From assembly GCA_012862575.1 (NCBI GenBank), contig BLSF01000027.1:186001-250000 (forward strand): DNA of 64,000 nucleotides, read 5' to 3'. The notes below the pieces were generated by a model. It was given only the letters and a program-made list of their open reading frames with translations, did no database searches and was not told the origin of the DNA. Below, piece after piece: positions 1 through 25,867 of the stretch (within the stretch, counting starts at the first letter, position 1; every line of letters starts with the position of its first letter). Made by a program: the position numbers and the translations under genes. This DNA is from Parietichytrium sp. I65-24A (Eukaryota; Sar; Bigyra; Thraustochytrida; Thraustochytriidae).

Positions 1-491
1 ACCCCAACAGCCGCCAGGAGAGGCTCCATCGCACCAATCGATGCGGTCATGGACACGGTGCTCAGCGCCAAGGAAGCGTTAAACAGAAGCAACGAGAAGA
101 ATTGAGCGACGCCGATGTGCCAAATCCTTCTCGACTTGAGCAACCGAATGGTTGTGGTCTGGCCGTAGCCAAAAAATCGGCTCATGTGCGCATCATAGGA
201 GAGAGGACTGGATCCGTTCACGAAAATGACGACTCTGACAAACAATACTACGCAACTCAGCTCTCCAAGCGTCAGAAGGGCCACTGCAGCCAGTGTATTA
301 TCGCTCCTTTTCAAAGCAAGTTCGCTCTGCGATGCATAGACCCCTTCGGCTGTCCACCATAGCAGCACCAGCAGCGCCAGAGACTTGTTCACGCCACTTA
401 TCTCATCATCGCCCTCATCTTTCAGGTCATCCGCCACACGCACGAATTCTTCTAGGTCGCGCGTATCGACGCGCTTGTATTTACCTGCCAT
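1..491 (-). CDS. TPT/DMT-family transporter-like protein, partial (3' end off the window)
   Basis: An open frame reads leftwards from an ATG at 491 to the window edge (163 codons, no stop reached). A charged, acidic N-terminus of about 35 residues is followed by hydrophobic segments at about residues 36-54, 66-91, 124-145 and 147-163. This matches the start of the ten-span triose-phosphate/nucleotide-sugar transporter fold. The stretch ending in MTASIGAMEPLLAAVG resembles the TPT segment that reads 'KALEPFF' in plant plastid translocators. The acidic leader and span spacing resemble the N-terminal parts of the two fusion genes at 2440-6150 and 8245-11712, so this is probably a fourth member of the same cluster. 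Whether it also carries a pyruvyl transferase domain cannot be seen. The start has G at +4 and a purine at -3. Fold assignment is by pattern recognition; the substrate is unknown. Confidence 0.6.
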   Translation of the reverse strand, partial: MAGKYKRVDTRDLEEFVRVADDLKDEGDDEISGVNKSLALLVLLWWTAEGVYASQSELALKRSDNTLAAVALLTLGELSCVVLFVRVVIFVNGSSPLSYDAHMSRFFGYGQTTTIRLLKSRRIWHIGVAQFFSLLLFNASLALSTVSMTASIGAMEPLLAAVG

Positions 492-2439: not shown

Positions 2440-5400
2440 TTACACATCAGTGTGCACTTCGTCACAAAAGATGCAATAGGTCGTGAAGAGATCATCGCAC
2501 CGTGAACCAATAGCCGTGCTCTGTTGGTCTCTACTCTCTGATTCGTAGAGCGTCAGTGCATAGACTGAACTGGAGGTGAGCTCCTCAAAGCTAGGTTTCG
2601 AAAAGCATTCTTCCACCTCGCTGGATGCAATGGGGAAGAAGTTGTGCGCTGATCCATGTCTAATGCCGTTCCCCAGAGCAAGTAGGTTCTTGGTAGTGCC
2701 GCAATCAGTGCAATTTTGCGTGTATTCGCCCAAAAACGCAAGAATTGTCTTCTGAAGGGCAGAGGAATCCGGGTCAGCCGTCTGAACCACCTTGCCAAAC
2801 TCGCCTACAAACACACTGTTTCTAAGTTTGAGTGGCAAAGGTCGAATCAAGTGTGTATCCTGTTCGAGGAACACGCCGCCATGCTGATGCAAGAGTAGCA
2901 TACGAACCACCCCGCTCTCGTGCTTAGACCAATGCTCAGTGCTAAGATCATTCCGTGTAAGGAACTCCAGAGCAGCTGAGTTCCCCTCGCGACGCCCAAA
3001 CTCCTGGAGCAAGCTTTGTACGTTGTAGCTTTGAACCCGCAGATCGTATCCTCCATCCACAAAGACCCTTGCCCGTCTAAAGGTGTCCTTAATCGAATTT
3101 GAGTGAAGGTACACGGTACAGTCGGGGTGGTGATAGAAAACTTGCTCGATGGCTCGGATTGAACGCCAACTGATGTCATCCTCTTCCTGGTCGACTAGGA
3201 AGTGAAAGACGTCAAAGTACTTGTTTCTGATCGACATAGGAACCTTGTGCAAATGCTGGAGTGGAATCATGCCGAATAGTCTTGCCGTGTCCTCGTAGAG
3301 AGGAGACCGTTTAATGAGGCTATTCCAGAACGATGCGCGCATGCGATCGGCTTGCTGATTTCCAGGGTTCGGTGCCGGCGATTCTAAGTCAAGAGGGAAA
3401 GGCTCCGTTTTCGGGTCCCACTGATGAAACAGCTCTGCTATTCCGGAGGTGCGAGACTGCGAGCCACCCGGAAGTGTCACCCCTTTCGACATGACAAAGA
3501 CAACCGGAATGCCCTGTGCCATGGCTGGAAGAGCGCAGTGAATTCTGGATGTCATCACAAATTTCGCAGTCTTCCCCCACTTTGCAACGTTATCAAATGC
3601 GTACTGGTAAGCTCTGAAGTTGCTCTGAAGAGGGTCCTGTTCTCTCCGGATCTTGACCGACTCTCGGATCACACTTCCGCGAATCGCCTCCGGGAGTGAT
3701 CGGTCAGGCACCTCTGCATCGACAATATAAATTTTGTTCCGCAATGAATCAAACTCTCGGGAACGGTACCCGGCGTTGATCATGGTTGTAAAGCAAATCG
3801 AAAAATACGCCTTGATCCCTGCATCCCGAAGAGCCTTTAGCGTGAAGAGATCGCGAGCCCCAACAGCTCCGTGTTGTGGAACGTAAGACTTTTTAAACCA
3901 CGGATGTTTCACAGCACGCTTGTCTTTTGAGTTCATCTCAAAGTGTACTGAGAAGAATTGGATTTCCAGATTATCGTTTGGTGGCCATGCCATCTTCCTC
4001 CCGTACCAAGCATTGCCAAATATATGACCGCTTCCTTTTTTCATGCCGTCATCACGATCAACGAAATGGGTGATGTATGGAGAAAACTGAGCCCCTGAAA
4101 GCGCTTGCATGTGGTCCCCAGTATTCTGGGTCTTGTGCCTTGCGTCGTTGGAGTAGAAGACAAACGCCGCAAATTCCTCTTTCAGCAAAACGGATGCTGA
4201 GGGCAATAGCATTTCGTGTGGCAATGGAGCGACAGCGATCGGGTCGTATTCACTTTGCCCAGGAACTGAGTCCACCCCACATATCCTTCGGGTTTCTCCA
4301 AGGACACGAACACAGCTGCCAGGGTACTTTTCAAGGAGTAAAAGCATGGCCACGGCCTGCAAGTTGTCAGGGAAGTATTCTTTCTGCAGCACTTTCGCGA
4401 TCATATGTGAGTTCACAAACTCTTCGAACCTTGTTCCCTTCCCCAGCGCTCTCATGTTGAGAGGCGATGCGACAGTTTCTCCAACTGCAACGATACAGGA
4501 AGAGTAAGCACAGAAAACCTTCTCCTTTGCGCACACCGAACTTTCGTCAGGGGGGTAAGGATACGTCCAAACGGCAATGCTTTTCGCGCTTCCGGATGAG
4601 TACTTGCTGCACTCGAGCTCGTCAGTGCTCTCGTCCGTACTCTCCCCGCCGGCACCTCCGTTCATAGTATTCGAGTCTTCGTCGTCTTGTGGCTCGTCTT
4701 GTGGTGGTGCTTCGTACTCTCCGTCGTAGTTGTCCTCCTCTTTATCAATGATTGAGGATGTGGTTGGCGCATCCGTTTGCAAGCGAAATGTTGGTTCGGC
4801 AGTTTGTGGGGAGGATGTCGGTACAGCGGAAGGCCCATCAGTCTTCAGCAGCGGGTGAAAAGTAGCAGTTGGTGATATGGTCTGCAATCGAACCGTTGGG
4901 GCGGCAGAATGTGGATATGACCCAATCTCGAGCAGCGTGGACGCAGTGGCGTTGGAGGCTTGATATGACGCGCCACTTGTCGTGTAGTAAGATGCAATAA
5001 AGTGGGAACAGAGTAACAAAAGTAAGAGCAATTTGGTAAGGTTGCCTTCCAGCTTTTGTTGTTCGCCCATGCCTAATGAGCTTGCCGAGGAAAATCCCAG
5101 GTAGAGCAAGACGCAAATTGCCAATGCAAAAGCGCCTAAAGCCACTTTGGAGTGAAATTCGTTCAAGACGATCGTGCCAATCACCGATACGCAGAGCAGA
5201 GATCGACCAGTGTCAAGGACGTTGAAAAGTGCTTGACCTAAAGTGGTCAAATTGACAAATGAGAGAAGCTGAGCGACGCCAAAGCAGACAGACGCGACAA
5301 TTGGAATTGCCTTGGTGCTCTCTGAACCCTCGCCCACTTCTTCGAGGGATGTTGGGGCTATCCATAGGGCCATGATCGAGACGGCGGCAACGATCACAAA

Positions 5401-6150
5401 CGAAAATGTTGCTGTCCATTTTTGGAATCTGAGAAGACCATTCGTCGAGCGATCCTCACCAAGATAGCGCTGAGCAGATGAAGAATAGTGCGCAAAGCAG
5501 AGCCCAGCCGAGCCTGCGAGCAAGATGCCTAACTCAGCGCCTTCAAGGGTGTGCTTCTCGAGACCAATTGCAAGGACTCCAAAGAAGCAAAGGACGGAGA
5601 TTACGGTCCAGCACTTCCAGTTGTCTGACTCACCAGAGCATGCTCGCACAAGAGCCTTCACGGAGAGGACTGCGAAGACGATGGACACTGAGCTAGCCAT
5701 CAATGCGCCATTGAGACACACGATTCCAACTGCCAACACGAAACCAGAACGCACTAGCTTCCAATCTAGACAGCTCGCCAAACCGCTGCTGTATAGCTCG
5801 CTTGTCGCTAAAGAATTGGGGAGAAACCTCTGCAACGTGATGAGAAGCTGAGCAAAGGAAGCTACACATATGCTTTGACCGATCCCCAACGCCGCAACCT
5901 TCAGCGCATACTTTTCATCTGCTTCGCCAAGATACTCTTTCATCGCGAACGCGCTAGCCGCAGTAACCACCCACCATGCCAAAGCTAGACCCACCAGAAG
6001 CGCCAAGCTCAACCCCCGCAAGTGCACTGTGCTATCATCTTTGTACAGGCTGACAAACTCGGTATCAAAGTCGTCCTCCTCTTCCTCGCCGTTCATCCGT
6101 TCGACATCCTTGCCCAGATCGCTGCTCACGACCCGCTCGTAGTCGCCCAT
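2440..6150 (-). CDS. Three-domain membrane protein: TPT-like transporter + pyruvyl transferase-like + GT32-like glycosyltransferase
   Basis: 1,236 residues from an ATG at 6150. Residues 1-45 are acidic. Ten hydrophobic spans (about 48-354) have the TPT/DMT layout, and an eleventh lies at about 372-389. A Thr/Pro- and Asp/Glu-rich linker (about 395-515) follows. Residues about 525-965 carry polysaccharide pyruvyl transferase-like motifs: QNTGDHMQ (675-682), GARD (764-767) and SRIHCALPAMAQGIPVVFV (868-886). Residues about 990-1236 resemble A4GALT/GT32 enzymes: RAIEQVFYHHPD near 999-1010, and GGVFLEQDTHLIRPLP at 1091-1106 where GT32 has GGIYLDTD. The first acid of the DxD motif is therefore Glu. 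The tail has CIFCDEVHT, shared with the paralogue at 8245-11712. By family knowledge, the middle domain transfers pyruvate from phosphoenolpyruvate to a sugar and the last transfers a hexose or HexNAc. An odd number of spans would place both in the Golgi lumen. The joint function is inferred. Confidence 0.75.
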   Translation of the reverse strand: MGDYERVVSSDLGKDVERMNGEEEEDDFDTEFVSLYKDDSTVHLRGLSLALLVGLALAWWVVTAASAFAMKEYLGEADEKYALKVAALGIGQSICVASFAQLLITLQRFLPNSLATSELYSSGLASCLDWKLVRSGFVLAVGIVCLNGALMASSVSIVFAVLSVKALVRACSGESDNWKCWTVISVLCFFGVLAIGLEKHTLEGAELGILLAGSAGLCFAHYSSSAQRYLGEDRSTNGLLRFQKWTATFSFVIVAAVSIMALWIAPTSLEEVGEGSESTKAIPIVASVCFGVAQLLSFVNLTTLGQALFNVLDTGRSLLCVSVIGTIVLNEFHSKVALGAFALAICVLLYLGFSSASSLGMGEQQKLEGNLTKLLLLLLLCSHFIASYYTTSGASYQASNATASTLLEIGSYPHSAAPTVRLQTISPTATFHPLLKTDGPSAVPTSSPQTAEPTFRLQTDAPTTSSIIDKEEDNYDGEYEAPPQDEPQDDEDSNTMNGGAGGESTDESTDELECSKYSSGSAKSIAVWTYPYPPDESSVCAKEKVFCAYSSCIVAVGETVASPLNMRALGKGTRFEEFVNSHMIAKVLQKEYFPDNLQAVAMLLLLEKYPGSCVRVLGETRRICGVDSVPGQSEYDPIAVAPLPHEMLLPSASVLLKEEFAAFVFYSNDARHKTQNTGDHMQALSGAQFSPYITHFVDRDDGMKKGSGHIFGNAWYGRKMAWPPNDNLEIQFFSVHFEMNSKDKRAVKHPWFKKSYVPQHGAVGARDLFTLKALRDAGIKAYFSICFTTMINAGYRSREFDSLRNKIYIVDAEVPDRSLPEAIRGSVIRESVKIRREQDPLQSNFRAYQYAFDNVAKWGKTAKFVMTSRIHCALPAMAQGIPVVFVMSKGVTLPGGSQSRTSGIAELFHQWDPKTEPFPLDLESPAPNPGNQQADRMRASFWNSLIKRSPLYEDTARLFGMIPLQHLHKVPMSIRNKYFDVFHFLVDQEEDDISWRSIRAIEQVFYHHPDCTVYLHSNSIKDTFRRARVFVDGGYDLRVQSYNVQSLLQEFGRREGNSAALEFLTRNDLSTEHWSKHESGVVRMLLLHQHGGVFLEQDTHLIRPLPLKLRNSVFVGEFGKVVQTADPDSSALQKTILAFLGEYTQNCTDCGTTKNLLALGNGIRHGSAHNFFPIASSEVEECFSKPSFEELTSSSVYALTLYESESRDQQSTAIGSRCDDLFTTYCIFCDEVHTDV

Positions 6151-6248
6151 CGCTCGGGATGCCGCCTATCTGCACGAGCGCCTCTCCGCTTCAGCGCTGC
6201 TTTGGACCCAACGCCACTTCAATTCTTCCACTTGGACTCCAAGTCTCC

Positions 6249-6283
6249 GTGCGTCTGTGCGTCTGTGCGTCTGTGCTTCTGTG
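6249..6283. repeat. 8-bp tandem repeat (GTGCGTCT) upstream of the leftward fusion gene
   Basis: About four copies of GTGCGTCT/GTGCTTCT, roughly 100 bp upstream of the ATG at 6150. Confidence 0.85.
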
Positions 6284-7708
6284 AGAGTTACAAGGCCAAC
6301 ATTCAACAACGCAATGCGATCGCCCGACTCGTCTCGCGCTTCACTTTTCGCCCCAGACTTGGAACAAACAAACCAATAAATGAACACTTCTTCCAAAGCT
6401 TTGACCCTTTTGGCCTTGACAGAGAACGCGTTCAACATCGAATCTTCATTCTAACATATTCTAACCCAGACGATTTCCGGAACTCATTTTGAAAATCTCA
6501 AATTTGAGAATCACACTATACCACCGCCAGCTCCCCCTACATCCCCCTACTCAACTCAGCCTACTCAGCCTACTTCTACTGATCTACTTATCTTGCTTTT
6601 ATAGTCAATTAGTCATTAATCCCGAGAAGAAATGGGCCAGATTTGCTAATCCACCAGCAAGGATAAACAATAAGTCCAATCCCACTCTCTAAAGCACATT
6701 GGTTTTTCCAACTTTCAAAATCATGTGACTCAAGAACTAAGACATCCTTGCGCCGCCTTGTATACATCGCGTTGATGTTGAGAACGGACGATCCCTTTCT
6801 TTCAGAATTTAGAACAGAACAACTTTCCTCCGAGATGTTCGTTGACAGTGAATAAAAATCGATCATGTATAATTAACAATTTCAACTTAAAAAGTGCAGA
6901 ATGCAGAGTTGAATGAGTTCAGAATGCAGAAATGGATCTTCCGCACCCCTGTCTTGCTCGAAAAGTAGCCGCCGACCCACTCGATGGGACGCGGCCGCGT
7001 ATATACACACACTCTCTTTATGTACTCCACACTCGGCGAGGATAGAAGGGTTTCGAAACTCCCTTTCTCACTGGCACGACCGTTTGCTTTTGCCTGGGAG
7101 GTCGCCCATAGGCAAAAACTAAGCCTATCACTCGTCAACGGTCGCGCGATGCTCTCGAGAGTCGGTGTTGGCATAATTACCCGTGGGATGGAGGCCGCTC
7201 TCTCCGACACTGACTTCTCTTATGGGACGACGCAATGTTCATGCTCATTGGTGATGCTCATGATTGGAAAAAGGGGAGTAGGAAATCAGGAAGAAGCGGG
7301 GCGAGCTAGACTAGCTCTTTTCTTCACTGAATTCACAGTGAGTTGGTTCTTTCGACTGATTTATCTATCAATCTTCAAGGTTGATGTCAATCAATCTCAA
7401 ACAAAGTCCCAAAGCGATGCTCGGATAGCTCGGATGGGACACGGCCGTTCTTTCCTCCTACTCTTCAACTTACCTACTAGTATCAAATTTAAGGATCGAG
7501 TTTCGAGCAAGCCGCACTGACTTCTGGGGCATCCTATAGCTACTCTATAGCATTTGCTAACGAGAAAAAGAGCTTGAGTATCTCTCTCACCGTATTGCTT
7601 ATATCCATAGTAAGCCACACTCGTAAGCTCCACAAATAGCCAGCCTCTTAGTCACGGCGATGACGTCAGCAGGCGAGAGCTAGAGAAAGCGAGCAAAAAA
7701 TCTTGGGA

Positions 7709-7741
7709 GCCATTAGGCCATTGGGACATTGGGACATTGGG
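7709..7741. repeat. 9-bp tandem repeat (GGCCATTGG/GGACATTGG type)
   Basis: About three to four imperfect copies of a 9-10 bp unit, about 500 bp upstream of the ATG at 8245. Confidence 0.75.
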
Positions 7742-8244
7742 TCAAAGATTAGAGGCAGAGATGGTAGAAGAGAGAGGGCGTCATGCATGCATGGCCCCAA
7801 AACTAGACACCAGGGGCGAGCGGTACTTAGTACTCGGTACTAATACTAGTGCACAGGAACATCGTAATTTGGAAGTCGCAAGCTAGCGTAGAGAGAGTAA
7901 CTTGAACTCAAAGACGACACATACAAGAAGGAAGAAGGCGAGATGGGTGGGATAGGTGGGATCCTTTTTCAAGAATCGTGCAAGTTGCAATCATTGGATG
8001 ACCTGACCCTCTGACTTTGGAGCTGGTGGAAACTTTCATCAAGCAGCGAAACTGCGAAAAGAGTGACAGAGCGAAAGCGTGGCGGCAGCAAAGCGCCAAA
8101 GCGGTCGGCCTGCGTCGCGGAGGGAAACAAACGTTGGTGTTGAAGACGCGTGGGAAAGTTTTTTTAGTTTGCGAGCGAGGCAGGAAGGCTAAATCTCGAG
8201 ACAGGCAGAGAGAGGCGGGGTTTGCGAGCTGGGACTAATCAAGC

Positions 8245-11200
8245 ATGGCCGAGAAAGACTTGGAGCTGAATAGCGCGGGCTGCGGGGTGGAGGATGACGT
8301 CGAGTCTGACGAGGAGAATGCGTCGATGATCAAAGGTAGTCTTGTCCAGCACGGCGCTGCGGCGGAAAAGCGGGCTCTGAAAGAAGCGGCTGCGAAACCG
8401 AGGAGGGTGATGCTCGGCCTGTGGTCGGCGTTCTCGCTTGTTGCTTGGGGCGGCTCCGCAGTGGTGTCCAAGTCGAGCCTGAACGAAGGCTGCGTGGAGG
8501 ACTCCTTGCTCCTGGCAACGTTGCAGATTGGCTCCACACTTTGCTTGCTATTCGCAATGAGCATAATTGCTCGCCGAGGCTGGCTGGCGACTGTGGGCGA
8601 AAGCGCAGTCCGCAAAGAGCTTGAAAGCCTGACCGAACAAGTCATTCTCTCGTTTTCACGAAAGTCTGAAGCCTGGGTGCTGGCTGTGCTCTTTACAGGC
8701 CACGTGGGATTCTATAACGCGGCACTCCTAAATTTGCCGATTTCCGCCGCTCAACTGATTCTCACTGCTGAATTGCTGAGCCTGTTTGCGCACGGTCATG
8801 GGGTTCGCTCGACCCTGATGCTCGCATTCCACGCCTGCTGTCAGCTAGCACTCGCCATCGTCTGGGGCGAAGAGTCCACTGGGGTGCTCTTCGCAGTGTG
8901 TAGCGCCACTTGCCTTGTCGCGTTTCAGCATCAGAGCAGTGAGAAAAGGTCCAACTACATTCACCTCCTGGCGTCCAGCTGCGCGGTCTCTGTGGTCTTC
9001 CTATCTGTGTCAAGTTTAGCCTACGTCTTTCTATTTGGGTCATCAGAATGCCACGAGTTTGAGTTTAAGGGCGGCCTTGTTGTCGCGTCGCTGCTGTTCG
9101 CATTGTATATTGCCTTTGGTGCGATCATCAACTCGAGTTTCTCCATCTCGAAAACCACAATGATTCGATCGCTTGTGTACATATCGGTGGCCCTCGTCCA
9201 CGGACTACTTTTCATGGCTGAAAACCATGACTTGGGGGAGTCCTTGGTAATGGCTCTAGTGGTATCGTCGGCTTGCGCCTACGTGATTGCGCATGCTTCT
9301 GGTGGACTCAAGCGAGTCGGCCTTGTCGTTTTGCTCACAGCGGTGGTGACATGCCTTCACCCACACTCTGAGCGAATGAAGATTGCGATCACTACCCACT
9401 TTTCGCACGTCAAAGAGGAGAAGGCGTTTTTGTTCCCACCATGGATTCACGAGTTTTCTCTGGACGGAAGTGCCCCTGAGGAGGCATCAAGTGGGCCTGG
9501 TGATCTGGATTGCAACAACATGCAAGTTGCTGGCCACAGTCACTTTGCAGTATGGACTTATCCTTACCCTCCGGCGAGCGCGCATTTCTGCGGTTTCGAA
9601 GAAGTCATATGTGCATATGAATCTTGTGCTGACCTCGTGGGTAAGCAGAGCACCCACTTTGTTAATCTGAGGCAACTCTCTGCCAACTCCAGATTTCGGG
9701 AATTCGTATGGCACCAAGTCAAGTACAAGCGCATGCACCTGCGTAACTTTCCCAAGCACGTTCAAGCCGTCGCGATGCTCCTGATCCTAGAAAGCAGCGA
9801 AAGCAGATGCGTGAGAATGCTTGGCGAAACCCTTACCATTTGCTCCGCGGATCTAGTCCTCGCAAACTCCTATGACCCGACGAAACCGGAGGAGGAGGTT
9901 CCAGCACTTCTTGCGCCTTCAGAACCCGTGCAGACACCAGACGAATATCTCGGCTTTGAATTCTACACCCATATTCCCAAACACGTGACTCAAAACACTG
10001 GAGACCATATGCAGGGATATCCCGGCATGCAGTTCTTGCCATATCTTACCAAGTACGTGGATCGTGACACTGACATGCGTGTGGCGAAGGGGAACATGTT
10101 CGGAAACGCTTGGTGGGGAGCAAAGTTCGACTGGCCACCATCGCCACAGCTGAACCTTACATTGTTTTCTGTCAACTACAACGCCGCCGGCGGGGACGTG
10201 CTGAATCGGCAGAAGGAATGGTTCAAGAAATATTCGACCGGCCCTCACGGTGCGATCGGAGCACGTGATACGGGAACACTCACGCAGCTTAAAAAGCTTG
10301 GCATCAGTACTTATTTCTCCGGCTGCTTTACCACAACATTTGACTTGGGATACCGCTCGGAGGCATACGACTCAGGAAAGACAGAATATTTTGTCGTGGA
10401 CGCAGCTTTTGATCGTAAAAAGTTGCCAACTGAGGTTCGCAGCAAGCTCCATGAGGACACATGTCTGATTCGGTTCAAGCGCAATGACCCTGCGCCCGTT
10501 GCTGAAACCTCCTATTCGTACGCATTCGACAACATTGAACGATGGGCGCGCCAAGGGAAACTGGTGATAACGTCGAGAATCCATAGCGCGCTACCCGCGC
10601 TCGGAAACGGAATTCCAGTGCTCTTTGTAGAATCAGAAAAGCTTCCAGGTGGTGGCGGACATAGGCTGGACGGTCTCGTTGAATTCTTCCATCGATGGAA
10701 CGTAGCAAAGAACGAACCTCTTCCGATCGACATCAATAACCCACCGCCCAACCCAGGCAATCGCCACGTCGACCGCTTGAGAGCGTCATTCTGGAACTCT
10801 CTTACCAAGAAGAACGTTGCTTATGAGAACACAGGACGTCTATTTGGCTGGGTCCCGATCAAGCGACTTCACCACTTATCAGACACGGAATTCGACAGTT
10901 TGCACAGCACCTTTCACATCGTCGTGCCTCCGTCAAAACAGTCTTTGAGTTGGAGGGAAATCCGTGCAATCGAGCAGATCTTCTTTCACAATCCCGACGC
11001 TACCGTCAATGTGTACAGCAATGGGCTGCCTGTGAATTACAGGAGTTTGCAGATCTTCAATGATGTAGGCTACCAGGTGAATCAGGTGCAGTATTATCTG
11101 AGCAGTCTGCTTGCTGAGTACAGCGAGCAGAGCAAAGTCACAGACGGTACAAAGGTCTCTCGATTTCTTTCCCAGGTCGACGAAGACTCGACCATGTGGT

Positions 11201-11712
11201 CAGAATCACTCGAAGCCAATTTTGTAAGGGCCCTCGTTCTCTTCCTGAACGGCGGCGTCTCGATTGAGCTGGACATGCACCTCTTGAAGCCTCTTCCGAA
11301 AGATCACTTTGACGAAGTTGCAGCATTCGGCGAATTCGGGCACTCGGTGATGTTTTTCGGCATGGAGAGCAAGATTCTAGATGAGGTCATCTATCAATAT
11401 ATGAATGGCTATTCCCAGGCGTGCAGTACAGAATGTGGCCTTGAGTCCGTTCTAAGTGAGAAGCTCTCGGAACTCGGAAGGCATTACGTCGACGCGCATC
11501 AATTCTATCCTTTGCCAGTCAGCCGAGTCACCTCATGCTTCAGCGAAAAATTGTCCAAGTCGCCCTCGCTCCCGGCGGCATATGGGATGGGGCTGTATCC
11601 GGGGATCACCGGCCATTTTGACGAGACACTTAGCAACTCTGTGTGCGACAAGCTGATGCACACGTACTGTATATTCTGTGATGAGGTACACACCAAGACG
11701 CAAATAATCTAA
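8245..11712 (+). CDS. Three-domain membrane protein: TPT-like transporter + pyruvyl transferase-like + GT32-like glycosyltransferase (paralogue)
   Basis: 1,155 residues. The ATG at 8245 is preceded in frame by TAA at 8236, so the N-terminus is fixed. Ten spans at about 56-350 have the DMT/TPT layout, with an extra span at about 356-371. A short linker (375-425) replaces the long acidic one of the 2440-6150 protein. The shared block begins at VWTYPYPP (436-443). Pyruvyl transferase-like motifs are QNTGDHMQ (583-590), FGNAWWG (619-625), GARD (672-675) and SRIHSALPALGNGIPVLFV (777-795). The GT32-like part starts near 900 (RAIEQIFFHNPD about 907-918) and has GGVSIELDMHLLKPLP at 1003-1018, again ExD in place of DxD. 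The C-terminus is CIFCDEVHTKTQII. The gene is head to head with its paralogue and convergent with 12280-14832. It probably acts in the Golgi lumen on cell-surface or secreted polysaccharide; donor and acceptor are not provable from sequence. Confidence 0.78.
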   Translation: MAEKDLELNSAGCGVEDDVESDEENASMIKGSLVQHGAAAEKRALKEAAAKPRRVMLGLWSAFSLVAWGGSAVVSKSSLNEGCVEDSLLLATLQIGSTLCLLFAMSIIARRGWLATVGESAVRKELESLTEQVILSFSRKSEAWVLAVLFTGHVGFYNAALLNLPISAAQLILTAELLSLFAHGHGVRSTLMLAFHACCQLALAIVWGEESTGVLFAVCSATCLVAFQHQSSEKRSNYIHLLASSCAVSVVFLSVSSLAYVFLFGSSECHEFEFKGGLVVASLLFALYIAFGAIINSSFSISKTTMIRSLVYISVALVHGLLFMAENHDLGESLVMALVVSSACAYVIAHASGGLKRVGLVVLLTAVVTCLHPHSERMKIAITTHFSHVKEEKAFLFPPWIHEFSLDGSAPEEASSGPGDLDCNNMQVAGHSHFAVWTYPYPPASAHFCGFEEVICAYESCADLVGKQSTHFVNLRQLSANSRFREFVWHQVKYKRMHLRNFPKHVQAVAMLLILESSESRCVRMLGETLTICSADLVLANSYDPTKPEEEVPALLAPSEPVQTPDEYLGFEFYTHIPKHVTQNTGDHMQGYPGMQFLPYLTKYVDRDTDMRVAKGNMFGNAWWGAKFDWPPSPQLNLTLFSVNYNAAGGDVLNRQKEWFKKYSTGPHGAIGARDTGTLTQLKKLGISTYFSGCFTTTFDLGYRSEAYDSGKTEYFVVDAAFDRKKLPTEVRSKLHEDTCLIRFKRNDPAPVAETSYSYAFDNIERWARQGKLVITSRIHSALPALGNGIPVLFVESEKLPGGGGHRLDGLVEFFHRWNVAKNEPLPIDINNPPPNPGNRHVDRLRASFWNSLTKKNVAYENTGRLFGWVPIKRLHHLSDTEFDSLHSTFHIVVPPSKQSLSWREIRAIEQIFFHNPDATVNVYSNGLPVNYRSLQIFNDVGYQVNQVQYYLSSLLAEYSEQSKVTDGTKVSRFLSQVDEDSTMWSESLEANFVRALVLFLNGGVSIELDMHLLKPLPKDHFDEVAAFGEFGHSVMFFGMESKILDEVIYQYMNGYSQACSTECGLESVLSEKLSELGRHYVDAHQFYPLPVSRVTSCFSEKLSKSPSLPAAYGMGLYPGITGHFDETLSNSVCDKLMHTYCIFCDEVHTKTQII

Positions 11713-12279: not shown

Positions 12280-14832
12280 TTATGTGCGAAGGAGATTAGT
12301 AAACGTTTCCGAAAGCCGTCCAGAGTACATTCCTCGGAGGCTGGTCTCGGATGCAGTCGGAGCTGAAGAAGGCAACAGATTCGCCGACGGCAAAACCTGG
12401 CTGGACTCAAAAAGCAACTTTGATGCGCTGCCAACCGCAGCTCGAAGATTCTTCACTTGCGTGTAACCAAGGGCAGTATGATTCATGCACGCTGGAGACA
12501 CTCTCGGAATGCCCTCGACCGCTTTGTGAGAGACGAACACAACGGGCTTTAATGCCATGGACGCGACAATTGCAACATCTGCTAAATTGGTGACAACAAC
12601 GCGACCGCTGTAAATCTTGGTCAAGAGATTCTTGACTCGGTCCTGGCGCGAATCCGGAAGACGGCCTTGATAGTGGGTAGCAGCAGTTGGCTCAAAGAAC
12701 AGCTGAGCGCCGTCCTCCAGGTCCTGCCAATACGAGATTCGGAAAGTGCTTCTGGTTGGACGATCAGACTCCACCCACTCCAGCCAGTCATTGATTTGCG
12801 CGTCGGTCCCACTGCTCCGCAGTTTGTTGTTTGAGGTGTGGCTCAAGAAGAACATAATATCTACAAGGCCGCCCTCCTCCTCTAAGGTCTCCAGCGACGG
12901 AGGTACAACCTGATCCCGCAACTGAAAGGTTGTGTCTGGCAAAAATACGTTGGAAATAAAGGACATGTCCGCCTTCGCTCGGAGGCTGGAAGACAACGAC
13001 TTCCATGCCATTACGATCCTGTCTGGATGCTGACGAATAGAAAAGTTGGGAACTCCGCTGAGCACCTTTTTTAGCTCGGATGCTTGCTTACTGAGCACCT
13101 TTTTCGAGCCATGGCTATAGTCGTCTGCAACGATCAAAAGTTGAGCGCCGCCCTCCAGCAATGCTGGAAGGAAATGGAAAATCATTCGCCGCTGCTTCAC
13201 CCAACTGCTACCCCAGGGCCCATTAATTGCAATAACGACCAAGTCGAATTTGCCGAATTGCTCTTGTCTGCAAGAAGTGTAACCGGGCGCCCAAAAGAAC
13301 TTGCCAAAGTGACAAATCTCAACGTGATCCACGGCGTTTACTTGCCATCCGGCATTTTTCCCGAGCGCTAATATACTGAGTATGTTGATGTCGTCTTCAT
13401 CTGCATGATTCGTTACCACCGGCTTCATAAGAAGAATTTTAGAGGGGGGTGTGGTGATGGCTTGATTGAGAGTGGTCACCTGAGCAGCGTTGATGTCATC
13501 AAGGCATGTCGACCAAACAGCCTCATCCACAAGCAAAGCTCCATTAGTTTCGAACGGAGTGTTGGAGAAGTCCATAAGTATCCAAAATTCGTACGAAAAT
13601 TGGACCGAAATCAGCATGAAGAACACGAGGGTGATCTGCTGCCATCTCCAGCAAGCCATCTTCAAAAACCTCAAGTTGACGCAGCCGAGAACGTTAGACT
13701 TTGCCACCTGGAATAAGACTGTAGCCATCGATGCAATGTATAATCCGACCCACTTTCGCATCCCTGGCTCCTCCCCCAGAAACACTGCCGCAGCCAAGAA
13801 TACAGTGAGTCCTTCGCCAGCTTTCAATGACGCGTAAACGGAACTGTCCATTTGGTCCAAAGCTAGCAGAGCAAAAATATTGTACATAGTGTAGCTCACA
13901 ACAGAGCCGACTGTGCTGAGGGCAATGGTCTCGTCCAGCACATCGGACATTGCGAGGCCAGCGAGCATCCAAACTGGTACAAGCCCAACTGTGACAATAT
14001 ATGACCCAATGATACAGCACCCGGAAAATATGTGCAGCATCGTCCAGTTATTCAAAAGCTCGCTATCATGCTGATCGTCTGCATCAAGAGCCCTGTGCTC
14101 CCTTTGAGAAGTGCGCAAATTCTCTATCAGAATAGTCCGCGCGCCAAAAGAGATATTATAGAAGCAAGCAATGCCGAAGCAAAAAATGCTGAAGGGTGGT
14201 TCGTACGCTGCAATGATGGCGCCAGCCAGGATGAGCGCAAAGAACACAAGAAGCGAGTTTCGCGGGACCTCGTGCCTGTATCGATCCCGGGCAAGACAAT
14301 AGAGCATTAGAATCACGAAAATCGGCTCTGCAAACTCATATGCTAAGGTAATGCTGACAGATGTGTAAACCACTAAAAGGTTCGTTCCTAAGCTCGCCAA
14401 CGCGTGCAGTGGGCCAAACACGCGCATTCTGCTAAGCACTTGCATCACGATGAAATTTTTCAGCGAGCCAAACGTGCGCAAATAGCCAAGATAGTATAGC
14501 ATACAAAGTGATAGGAGAGCACCTCCGTACAGGTGATACATGGTGAGCGCATATGCGACGAGAAACGCAAACCCTGTTTGATCCGCCACGCCATGAAGGA
14601 TGGTTTTCGTGCTTGCTGAAAAATAAGCGCTAAAGATCCACCAACCCACTACAAGCAACCCGATGCCAAGACTACTCTTCTCGGTCATGCTGCTTGTTGT
14701 GCTCTTCGAGACCGGCTTGGAGCCTCCATTATACCCTGCTGCGCCCCCTTTTGGACTCCGCATCGCAAGCAGTTCCCCGCGACCTGTCACAAAGTCTTGA
14801 ATGTCTTCTATGCCCGCCAGAGTGGAATGCAT
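12280..14832 (-). CDS. TPT-like transporter fused to a divergent pyruvyl transferase-like domain
   Basis: 850 residues from an ATG at 14832. Ten spans at about 55-377 match the triose-phosphate translocator family well. VSYTMYNIFALLALDQMDSS (311-330) parallels the 'SVNYNLYNEFAFLAL' stretch near the end of TPT proteins, and FYNISFGARTILIE (224-237) parallels the mid-protein 'N-x-R-N-I-x-x-K' segment. An extra span lies at about 397-416. Residues about 460-800 look like a pyruvyl transferase-type Rossmann fold: FDLVVIAINGPWG (529-541), ALLEGGAQLLIVADDYSHG (557-575) and VVVTNLADVAIVASMALKPV (745-764). In the last motif the Arg-x-His seen in the two paralogues is absent (Asn-Leu-Ala-Asp instead), so activity may be lost or changed. 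There is no GT32 domain. The neighbours share the architecture, which supports a common pathway. The transporter call is firm; the C-terminal call is tentative. Confidence 0.62.
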   Translation of the reverse strand: MHSTLAGIEDIQDFVTGRGELLAMRSPKGGAAGYNGGSKPVSKSTTSSMTEKSSLGIGLLVVGWWIFSAYFSASTKTILHGVADQTGFAFLVAYALTMYHLYGGALLSLCMLYYLGYLRTFGSLKNFIVMQVLSRMRVFGPLHALASLGTNLLVVYTSVSITLAYEFAEPIFVILMLYCLARDRYRHEVPRNSLLVFFALILAGAIIAAYEPPFSIFCFGIACFYNISFGARTILIENLRTSQREHRALDADDQHDSELLNNWTMLHIFSGCCIIGSYIVTVGLVPVWMLAGLAMSDVLDETIALSTVGSVVSYTMYNIFALLALDQMDSSVYASLKAGEGLTVFLAAAVFLGEEPGMRKWVGLYIASMATVLFQVAKSNVLGCVNLRFLKMACWRWQQITLVFFMLISVQFSYEFWILMDFSNTPFETNGALLVDEAVWSTCLDDINAAQVTTLNQAITTPPSKILLMKPVVTNHADEDDINILSILALGKNAGWQVNAVDHVEICHFGKFFWAPGYTSCRQEQFGKFDLVVIAINGPWGSSWVKQRRMIFHFLPALLEGGAQLLIVADDYSHGSKKVLSKQASELKKVLSGVPNFSIRQHPDRIVMAWKSLSSSLRAKADMSFISNVFLPDTTFQLRDQVVPPSLETLEEEGGLVDIMFFLSHTSNNKLRSSGTDAQINDWLEWVESDRPTRSTFRISYWQDLEDGAQLFFEPTAATHYQGRLPDSRQDRVKNLLTKIYSGRVVVTNLADVAIVASMALKPVVFVSHKAVEGIPRVSPACMNHTALGYTQVKNLRAAVGSASKLLFESSQVLPSANLLPSSAPTASETSLRGMYSGRLSETFTNLLRT

Positions 14833-24127: not shown

Positions 24128-25867
24128 CTACTTAGAATATCGAATCTGGTGCCGGTTCTCAGTGAAAACGCGAGTATGCCCCTTTGCATTTACATTTGGT
24201 CCATGCTCCGGCTTCCCCACTTTGCGACTCTTTACAACACCGCAGGGAGAAGAAGAGGCGTCAGACTGTCTCTTCTTCCCACGCGTAACAGAATCTTCGA
24301 ATCGCGTCGCCTCACACTCTTCCGAATCCACACTATCGATCGCAACGACCTCGCACTCGGAGAACGCACTTAAGAAACATTCCGGGCTGCATTCCGACTT
24401 GCCATCCAGCGCAATCTTACTTTCTGCTATGAATGCCAATCCATGCAAGCTGGGGTCCGCTTCGCATTTTTGGCTCCGGATTAACAGTGAGTCGACATGC
24501 AGTAACACACGATCGTTGTCACACTTTGCTTGGTTTGGTCGAGTGGCCTCAAAATCTTTTTCTTTCAGGTGAACTGTTTTGATGTGAGTTCCAAGATGTC
24601 CAGCTTGTCCGAACGCTCTCCCACGTTGGCCGCACCTGAAATCTCTCTGTTTCAAATGAATTGTTTTGATGTGATTTCGAAGAACTCGAGCGTGTCCAAA
24701 GGCTTTCCCACACTCGCCACATTCGTGATCTTTGTGCTTCAAATGAACTGTTTTGATGTGAGTTCGAAGATTTCCACCTGATGTAAATGCTTTTCCACAC
24801 TCGCCACACTCAAAATCTTTTTCTTTCAGGTGAACTCTTTTGATGTGAGTTCGAAGATTTCCACCTGATGTAAATGCTTTCCCACATTCCCCGCATTCAA
24901 AATCTTTTTCTTTCAGGTGAACTGTTTTGATGTGAGTTCGAAGATTTCCACCTGATGTAAATGCTTTTCCACACTCGCCACACTCAAAATCTTTTTCTTT
25001 CAGGTGAACTGTTTTGATGTGAGTTCGAAGATGTCCACCTGATGTAAATGCTTTCCCACACTCGCCACATTCAAAATCTTTTTCTTTGAGATGAACTGTT
25101 TTGATGTGAGTTCGAAGATATCCACCTGATGTAAATGCTTTTCCACACTCGCCGCACTCAAAATCTTTTTCTTTCAGGTGAACTGTTTTGATGTGAGTTC
25201 GAAGATGTCCGCCTGATGTAAATGCTTTCCCACACTCGCCACATTCGTGATCTTTGTGTTTCAGATGAATTGTTCTGATGTGAGTCCGAAGATATCCACC
25301 TGATGTAAATGCTTTCCCACACTCGCCACATTCGTGATCTTTGTGTTTCAGATGAATTGTTCTGATGTGAGTCCGAAGATATCCACCTGATGTAAATGCT
25401 TTTCCACACTCGCCACACTCAAAATCTTTCTCTTTCAGGTGAACTGTTTTGATGTGAGTTCGAAGATTTCCACCTGATGTAAATGCTTTCCCACATTCCC
25501 CGCATTCAAAATCTTTTTCTTTCAGGTGAACTGCTCTGATGTGCTTTCGAAGAATTGCAGCTTCTCCAAACGCTTTCCCACACTCGCCACATTCGTGGTC
25601 TTTGTGCTTCAAATGAACTGCTCTGATGTGCTTTCGAAGATTTCCAGCTTCTCCAAACGCTTTCCCACACTCGCCACATTCGTGATCTTTGTGCTTCAAA
25701 TGAACTGTTTTGATGTGAGTTCGAAGACGCGTGGCTCCTCCAAAGGATATTCCGCACTCATCACATCCATGCCTCGTGTCGCCTACCTCTTTGTGCCGCC
25801 CCATTTCCCCAGTCCGACTCGCGTTGCCAAAGCTCGTCTGCGCGTTCTGACTCTGCACTCTCTGCAC
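24128..25867 (-). CDS. C2H2 zinc-finger protein with a 14-unit tandem finger array
   Basis: 579 residues. From about residue 33 to 438 there are 14 consecutive 29-residue units of the form C-X2-C-X12-H-X4-H joined by a five-residue linker (LKEKD or LKHKD) in place of the usual TGEKP. Thirteen units keep all four zinc ligands; in the last one the second Cys is Arg. Units 4-12 are almost identical (GECGKAFTSGGxLRTHI) and differ mainly at x, helix position +3 (order N, Y, Y, H, Y, H, N, N, N). A C-terminal tail (about 440-579) is acidic, then basic, with a possible nuclear signal (GKKRQSD). Such arrays bind DNA or RNA in the nucleus; the target is unknown. The gene is head to head with the giant-protein gene at 26747. 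Confidence 0.85.
   Translation of the reverse strand: MQRVQSQNAQTSFGNASRTGEMGRHKEVGDTRHGCDECGISFGGATRLRTHIKTVHLKHKDHECGECGKAFGEAGNLRKHIRAVHLKHKDHECGECGKAFGEAAILRKHIRAVHLKEKDFECGECGKAFTSGGNLRTHIKTVHLKEKDFECGECGKAFTSGGYLRTHIRTIHLKHKDHECGECGKAFTSGGYLRTHIRTIHLKHKDHECGECGKAFTSGGHLRTHIKTVHLKEKDFECGECGKAFTSGGYLRTHIKTVHLKEKDFECGECGKAFTSGGHLRTHIKTVHLKEKDFECGECGKAFTSGGNLRTHIKTVHLKEKDFECGECGKAFTSGGNLRTHIKRVHLKEKDFECGECGKAFTSGGNLRTHIKTVHLKHKDHECGECGKAFGHARVLRNHIKTIHLKQRDFRCGQRGRAFGQAGHLGTHIKTVHLKEKDFEATRPNQAKCDNDRVLLHVDSLLIRSQKCEADPSLHGLAFIAESKIALDGKSECSPECFLSAFSECEVVAIDSVDSEECEATRFEDSVTRGKKRQSDASSSPCGVVKSRKVGKPEHGPNVNAKGHTRVFTENRHQIRYSK
24554..25771 (-). repeat. 87-bp tandem repeat array encoding zinc fingers
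   Basis: Fourteen 87-bp units in phase with the protein. The central units are highly similar at DNA level, for example the recurring TCCACCTGATGTAAATGC block on the plus strand, which points to recent expansion or gene conversion. Confidence 0.9.

Follow-up and report, generated by a model that had tools for sequence, protein, structure and literature searches.

Pyruvylated galactose is known from the Golgi of fission yeast, Schizosaccharomyces pombe, where the Golgi enzyme Pvg1p depends on Pet1p and Pet2p for its phosphoenolpyruvate (PEP), according to the accessible parts of two reports (PMC10435577, PMC6801904). A second system produces the O1 antigen of Klebsiella pneumoniae, in which, as the accessible part of PMC10629545 describes, a galactose polymerase and a pyruvyl transferase cooperate: WbbY polymerises the galactose, and the cap that WbbZ then adds brings polymerisation to an end in vitro. 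In fission yeast the transporters Pet1p and Pet2p are proteins distinct from the pyruvyl transferase, and WbbY and WbbZ are two separate bacterial proteins for which no transporter domain is reported in that part of the paper. The locus described here differs from both. It lies in a 64,000-nucleotide stretch of the thraustochytrid Parietichytrium sp. I65-24A (contig BLSF01000027.1, positions 186,001 to 250,000; hereafter the window), where two adjacent genes, p1 and p2, each join a polysaccharide pyruvyl transferase (PSPT) domain, a GT32-like glycosyltransferase (GT) domain and a many-pass membrane domain in one chain. We favour the reading, with a probability of roughly 0.6, that p1 and p2 are paralogous secretory-pathway enzymes, probably of the Golgi, that add and cap, carried on a transporter-derived anchor and possibly fed with donor by it. 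In such a scheme, a polytopic domain of DMT/TPT descent would span the membrane, its N-terminus facing the cytosol, and an eleventh helix would lead the chain into the lumen. The lumenal GT32-like domain would add a sugar onto a growing glycan, which the PSPT domain would cap with a pyruvate ketal, the pyruvate coming from PEP; with addition and capping coupled on one chain, the product would be a negatively charged, terminated glycan.

Both genes are single uninterrupted open reading frames (ORFs) in divergent, head-to-head orientation: p1 occupies the minus strand from 2440 to 6150 (1236 codons without a stop) and p2 the plus strand from 8245 to 11712 (1155 codons without a stop), compared with a longest stop-free run of 302 codons in 100 mononucleotide shuffles of the 64-kb window. 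An earlier sequence-only reading of this DNA had proposed a head-to-head pair of paralogues here, and the ORF check and an overall identity of 36% between the two products agree with it. That reading had also proposed a three-part order of transporter, pyruvyl transferase and glycosyltransferase; both proteins indeed show the corresponding order, with a membrane region in the first place and with a domain of about 135 amino acids (aa), which we call domain X, interposed between that region and the PSPT domain. The features of the two genes are as follows.

2440 to 6150, minus strand: p1, membrane region, stem, domain X, PSPT and GT in one ORF of 1236 aa (ORF, Pfam, alignment with p2)
4990 to 6006, minus strand: p1 membrane region, 11 hydrophobic segments, aa 49-387, in part weakly like DMT-type sugar transporters (hydropathy, profiles)
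4990 to 5040, minus strand: p1 eleventh segment, aa 371-387, the odd helix that would put the rest across the membrane (hydropathy)
4591 to 4983, minus strand: p1 stem, aa 390-520, Ser/Thr/Pro-rich and then acidic (read from the sequence)
4171 to 4575, minus strand: p1 domain X, aa 526-660, starting AVWTYPYPP (alignment; no Pfam match)
3376 to 4161, minus strand: p1 PSPT domain, aa 664-925 (PF04230 and motifs)
4114 to 4125, minus strand: p1 NTGD motif, aa 676-679, its Asp taken as Pvg1 D106 from motif and order (alignment)
3850 to 3861, minus strand: p1 GARD motif, aa 764-767, its Arg taken as Pvg1 R217 from motif and order (alignment)
3538 to 3549, minus strand: p1 SRIH motif, aa 868-871, its Arg and His taken as Pvg1 R337 and H339 (alignment, PDB profile match)
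2443 to 3210, minus strand: p1 GT32-like GT domain, aa 981-1236, with ExD at 2857-2865 (PF04488 below cut-off)
8245 to 11712, plus strand: p2, same order as p1, 1155 aa (ORF, Pfam, alignment with p1)
8416 to 9357, plus strand: p2 membrane region, 11 hydrophobic segments, aa 58-371, no match to transporter profiles (hydropathy, profiles)
9547 to 9948, plus strand: p2 domain X, aa 435-568 (alignment; no Pfam match)
9958 to 10743, plus strand: p2 PSPT domain, aa 572-833 (PF04230; fold match to WbbZ and Pvg1)
9994 to 10005, plus strand: p2 NTGD motif (alignment)
10258 to 10269, plus strand: p2 GARD motif (alignment)
10573 to 10584, plus strand: p2 SRIH motif (alignment, PDB profile match)
10906 to 11709, plus strand: p2 GT32-like GT domain, aa 888-1155, with ExD at 11266-11274 (PF04488 above cut-off)

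By alignment segment, p1 and p2 are 24% identical in the membrane region, 24% in the linker, 39% in domain X and the stretch that follows it, 46% in the PSPT domain, 48% in the stretch between PSPT and GT, and 37.5% in the GT domain. Domain X, for which Pfam returned no match in either protein, has five cysteines common to both and the pattern AVWTYPYPP ... CVRxLGETxxIC. We draw no evidence of selection from Ka/Ks, synonymous differences between p1 and p2 having reached saturation in four of the six segments and being high in the remaining two.

The middle domain of both proteins belongs to the PSPT family. PF04230 (PS_pyruv_trans) matches p1 with an E-value of 2.9e-7 (31.1 bits) and p2 with 8.6e-9 (36.1 bits), both above the curated cut-off of 25.3 bits. 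The published motifs of the family, N-x-G-D, R-x-x-x-(S/T) and H, are given in the accessible part of PMC10629545, which also places Pvg1 D106, R217 and R337 at positions preserved in WbbZ; all three motifs are present in p1 and p2, in the forms N-T-G-D, G-A-R-D-x-x-T and S-R-I-H. What is accessible of the functional work on these positions reports that the Pvg1 D106A mutant has almost no activity (PMC4872226) and that the CsaB residues equivalent to R217 and H339 are critical for PEP binding (PMC10435577). In an alignment of p1, p2 and 15 bacterial fragments, all 17 rows have the same N, G, D, R and H; the Arg of SRIH, kept in p1 and p2, is replaced by L, A or K in seven of the 15 bacterial rows. 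We matched this Arg to Pvg1 through a PDB profile match, non-significant alone (E 0.64 and 0.094 with two profiles), that pairs T-S-R-[IL]-H with T-D-R-L-H of Pvg1; the R-L-H of that stretch was taken as R337, L338 and H339 because these residues are named as one run in the accessible text of PMC6801904.

Structure comparison leads to the same family. An AlphaFold2 model of the catalytic part of p2, built from 16 rows, has predicted local distance difference test (pLDDT) values mostly of 55-82 in the PSPT blocks, with dips to 36-47. Searched against the PDB with Foldseek, this model has WbbZ (6x1l) at rank 1 (probability 1.00, E 1.3e-3) and Pvg1 at ranks 2 (5ax7_A, probability 0.97, E 9.2e-3) and 6 (5ax7_B, 0.95, 1.8e-2), and among the best 50 of 571 matches (E up to 10) nothing besides WbbZ and Pvg1 exceeds a probability of 0.28. 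Pvg1p is thereby like p1 and p2 in PSPT family, motifs and second-ranked fold, and WbbZ is the top fold match. Searches of PDB sequences are insufficient by themselves, and the placement comes from Pfam and the fold match: whole-protein phmmer, run with p2, gave one chance match alone, the PSPT profile A3 gave no match, profile A4 had Pvg1 third (E 0.64) after RfaG (0.13) and a ribosomal protein (0.62), and profile A10 had Pvg1 first (E 0.094). The pyruvyl transferase-like middle domain that the sequence-only reading had seen is upheld by profile, motif and Foldseek checks alike. In a tree of 17 PSPT domains p1 and p2 form one clade, whose sister group the tree leaves unresolved.

The C-terminal domain matches PF04488 (Gly_transf_sug) in p2 with an E-value of 3.7e-5 and 24.8 bits, above the cut-off of 23, and three blocks, IRAIEQ, GGV and ExD, are kept in both proteins. 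A profile made from the two GT sequences reached the DxD region of Och1 in the PDB with a non-significant E-value of 0.11, behind a designed repeat protein, and may be taken as a weak pointer only; a GT profile gave short matches, limited to the surroundings of the sugar-binding motif, in six of 299 genomes and was not used further. We call the domain GT32-like, a sequence-based label without sugar assignment, the sole part detected being a predicted GT32-type sugar-binding region. The domain had been described earlier as A4GALT/GT32-like and as galactosyltransferase-like. The GT32 half of the first label is retained, and A4GALT membership was rejected, as PF04572 (Gb3_synth) scores 13.6 bits in p1 and 13.2 bits in p2 (E 0.075 and 0.1), compared with a cut-off of 22.3; the second label goes beyond the evidence, since sugar specificity is unreadable here.

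Fusion of a GT to a PSPT domain is also found in bacteria. The PSPT alignment identified four loci in bacterial and archaeal genomes, three of which are Caps_synth-PSPT fusions and the fourth of which is truncated by its contig. A profile in which p1 and p2 were combined with four such relatives picked out 14 of 292 genomes in the phylum to which the cyanobacterium Tildeniella belongs and two of 289 in the class of Parvibaculum, each count including one genome from which a seed came. Pfam scans of 13 relatives (L009, L013, L016, L017, L018/L020 and L019 stood outside them) show GT and PSPT in one ORF in seven and no GT in six, among them L003, which is cut; the sample is biased, because fusions seeded the profile. 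Four of the fusions have Caps_synth before PSPT (L001, L002, L004, L005) and three are GT8-PSPT ORFs (L008, L015, L022), the GT preceding the PSPT domain in six. The bacterial PSPT domains have N-x-G-D, G-x-R-D and S-x-C in common with p1 and p2. Among plasmids the PSPT part of p2 had one match, a Sphingobium protein with Caps_synth and then PS_pyruv_trans; no homologue was found in viral_contigs (three scans, with profiles A1, A3 and A5) or, with p2 as query, in phages. Two of the ORFs merit separate mention: L022 (346-3087, class of Parvibaculum) alone has the enzyme order of p1 and p2, a PSPT domain below cut-off and then a GT, but the GT is of the GT8 family, and the cyanobacterial L005 (2221-4488) carries a sub-threshold methyltransferase match in one frame with Caps_synth and PSPT.

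Bacteria have joined GT and PSPT domains on more than one occasion, with the GT before or after the PSPT domain and drawn from different families, which supports a link between sugar addition and capping. The Caps_synth-PSPT and GT8-PSPT ORFs share with p1 and p2 the single chain and differ from them in GT family or order and in having no transporter family in the Pfam scans (none listed for the 13 relatives at the thresholds used). As bacteria too fuse GT and PSPT, it is the membrane domain that is the unusual part of p1 and p2. No transporter-pyruvyl transferase-GT protein is described among the open-licence literature matches listed, a coverage outside which subscription journals mostly fall; the sequence-only reading had known of no such three-part protein, and it agrees with those matches, although the GT-PSPT fusion itself is known in bacteria (seven of the 13).

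Hydropathy predicts 11 segments in each protein, and stricter settings give 11 in p1 and 10 in p2, together with one hydrophobic stretch inside the catalytic part of each. Members of the TPT family (PF03151) and the DMT superfamily have about ten transmembrane helices, and the ten spans first proposed for both proteins were right as to a many-segment membrane part but not, except for p2 under the stricter settings, as to the number. The spacings of the eleven segments, at positions set by thresholds of our own choosing, correlate between p1 and p2 (r 0.80, permutation p 0.0006). Lys and Arg counts before the segments favour a cytosolic N-terminus (10 versus 6 in p1, 13 versus 2 in p2), and with an odd number of helices the catalytic part would therefore come to lie in the lumen, and we infer a lumenal side for the PSPT and GT domains and, as probable, a Golgi location. 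Cysteines behave differently in the two halves of the proteins: of the 16 aligned cysteine columns in the catalytic part, taken as everything past residue 510 of p1, 13 are identical compared with 290 of 704 other columns (Fisher p 0.0016), and in the membrane part four of 16 compared with 80 of 318. Of the 13 kept catalytic cysteines, 12 are outside the PSPT core; the remaining one is within it and is shared by all 15 bacterial rows. This pattern fits what would be expected of lumenal disulfides.

As to family, p1 and p2 have the many short hydrophobic segments of TPT/EamA (DMT) transporters and differ from them by their enzyme domains and by the extra eleventh segment. The p1 membrane region matches PF06800 (E 6.3e-5, below cut-off) and TIGR00776, RhaT (E 2.2e-6, far under the cut-off of 319.6 bits), two sugar transporter families that we take to be DMT members. 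A clearer match comes from a neighbouring gene, p3, and a fourth gene start, p0, is weakly similar.

12280 to 14832, minus strand: p3, 850 aa, a TPT-family N-terminal part, a further hydrophobic segment and a C-terminal part of about 430 aa (PF03151, TIGR00817)
3 to 491, minus strand: p0, the beginning of a fourth gene that is truncated at the window edge, with weak likeness to TPT (PF03151, BLASTP)

Taken alone, the first 410 residues of p3 match PF03151 with an E-value of 8.4e-9 and 35.7 bits, above the cut-off of 30, and the only NCBIfam match of p3 is TIGR00817, the phosphate/PEP translocator subfamily (E 6.4e-4; 19.3 bits, where the cut-off is 317.9). PF03151 matches p0 below cut-off (E 0.012, 15.4 bits), and BLASTP aligns p0 with the p1 membrane region (E 0.002, a single comparison). 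Up to four adjacent genes may thus start with a DMT-type membrane domain, the signal being clear in p3 and weak in p0 and p1; p2 would join this group by position and segment pattern only. For p1, the DMT-type matches and the TPT-positive neighbour make a transporter reading plausible, and for p2 DMT descent is at most probable. The claim of a TPT domain in both proteins accordingly finds sub-threshold DMT-type matches in p1 and no profile match in p2. The likeness to fission yeast drawn at that time also took Pet1 for a TPT-family protein.

A number of results weigh against the reading of p1 and p2 as add-and-cap enzymes on a transporter-derived anchor. Every transporter match of p1 is sub-threshold; p2 has none in Pfam or NCBIfam, its ABC2_membrane_3 matches at 0.15 and 2.6 being at chance level; and the two membrane regions are not recognised as similar by BLASTP (E 3.4). 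The AlphaFold2 model of the membrane region, from four rows, has a mean pLDDT of 40.7, too poor for a fold search, and the membrane-region profile had no match among PDB sequences. The whole of p3 matches nothing in Pfam at E<=1, and p3 has 13 segments with a reversed charge bias (6 versus 14), for which reason the topology argument is not extended to it. In the catalytic part, the p2 model is poor (mean pLDDT 52.5) and Foldseek gave no match at E<=0.001, the GT domain being mostly below a pLDDT of 50 after its first ~70 residues at 52-69; PF04488 is under its cut-off of 23 in p1 (E 3.2e-4, 21.8 bits); the DxD site reads ExD, as EQD in p1 and ELD in p2; and each catalytic part has a single N-glycosylation sequon. 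The membrane domain of p2 may have lost a transporter role or never had one.

One alternative is that the membrane region serves purely as an elaborate anchor: a polytopic domain, either decayed or of unrelated origin, would hold in the Golgi a GT-PSPT enzyme that is fed by separate transporters as in fission yeast. We give this explanation somewhat less than even odds. It would account for the absence of a transporter match in p2, for the dissimilarity of the two membrane regions by BLASTP, and for the membrane region and linker being the least conserved parts (24% identity compared with 46% in PSPT); it does not readily account for the DMT-type matches of p1, sub-threshold as they are, for the number and spacing of segments kept between p1 and p2, or for the TPT-family domain that adjacent p3 has at the equivalent N-terminal position. 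That the membrane domain transports a donor, whether PEP or a nucleotide sugar, is a guess, compatible with p1 and unsupported by p2.

A rather unlikely alternative is that one of the catalytic domains, most probably the GT, is inactive and serves in binding or regulation. The replacement of DxD by ExD in both paralogues and the weak family scores would be in keeping with it, but the GT domains are still 37.5% identical and have kept the IRAIEQ, GGV and ExD blocks. In the favoured reading both enzymes are taken to be active.

The membrane domain could also be a functional transporter of nucleotide sugars, supplying the GT, rather than a PEP transporter that feeds the PSPT domain, which we consider unlikely. 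The TPT/DMT superfamily is rich in nucleotide-sugar transporters, and the best matches of p1 are sugar transporters. Assemblies of transporters with glycosyltransferases in Golgi membranes have been published (accessible part of PMC6453868). No match was substrate-specific, however, and the sole NCBIfam match of p3 points to the phosphate/PEP translocator subfamily. That the fusion is an artefact of assembly or gene reading is very improbable: although the gene models come from genomic ORFs and introns are apparently present elsewhere in the window (MCM2, by eye), two paralogues just 36% identical have the same uninterrupted order in ORFs far longer than the shuffle maximum, and an assembly artefact was judged unlikely on these grounds.

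The add-and-cap reading has a fuller form, in which each protein is a complete pyruvylation machine, with a TPT-superfamily importer of PEP (or nucleotide sugar), a GT and a capping enzyme, the donor being released in the lumen beside its enzyme, and as many as four TPT-type fusion genes would form the cluster. We regard this form as doubtful. With its enzymes joined to a many-pass membrane domain, either p1 or p2 could build and cap a glycan by itself, and with a transporter-type domain in the chain donor delivery to a Golgi enzyme would become directly testable because transporter and client would be present at a fixed 1:1 ratio. A capping enzyme, a GT and a transporter-type domain in one protein would also indicate a eukaryotic pyruvylation pathway from sequence.

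Next to the p1/p2 pair, p3 is a second kind of TPT fusion, whose C-terminal part has no usable family match. This part resembles a worn PSPT domain by eye, a likeness that found no backing in profile comparison: hhalign to profile A4 was unsupportive (probability 4.9, E 0.0081, a single comparison), and when scored with a profile of PF04230 proteins from 29 of 30 bacterial loci, one having been missed by the motif filter, it ranked 13th, amid its own shuffled copies. That profile is a weak control, as p1 and p2 also scored low (E 0.54 and 0.09) and one shuffle reached 0.018. The C-terminal part had no PDB match, and its matches in two of 146 genomes contain in-frame stops and look like chance.

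Elsewhere the window has eukaryotic content, including an MCM2 gene spread across two large ORFs (Pfam), whose coding stretches are separated by what by eye appear to be GT...AG introns, and a gene for a WD40 protein that carries an NLE domain (Pfam). The minus-strand ORF at 24128-25867 encodes C2H2 zinc-finger-like repeats, nearly identical to one another and in a long array, as recognised by eye, and the plus-strand ORF at 26693-50137, of 7814 codons, carries bacterial-type Ig/cadherin-like repeats (PF17963, PF17803, PF17892).

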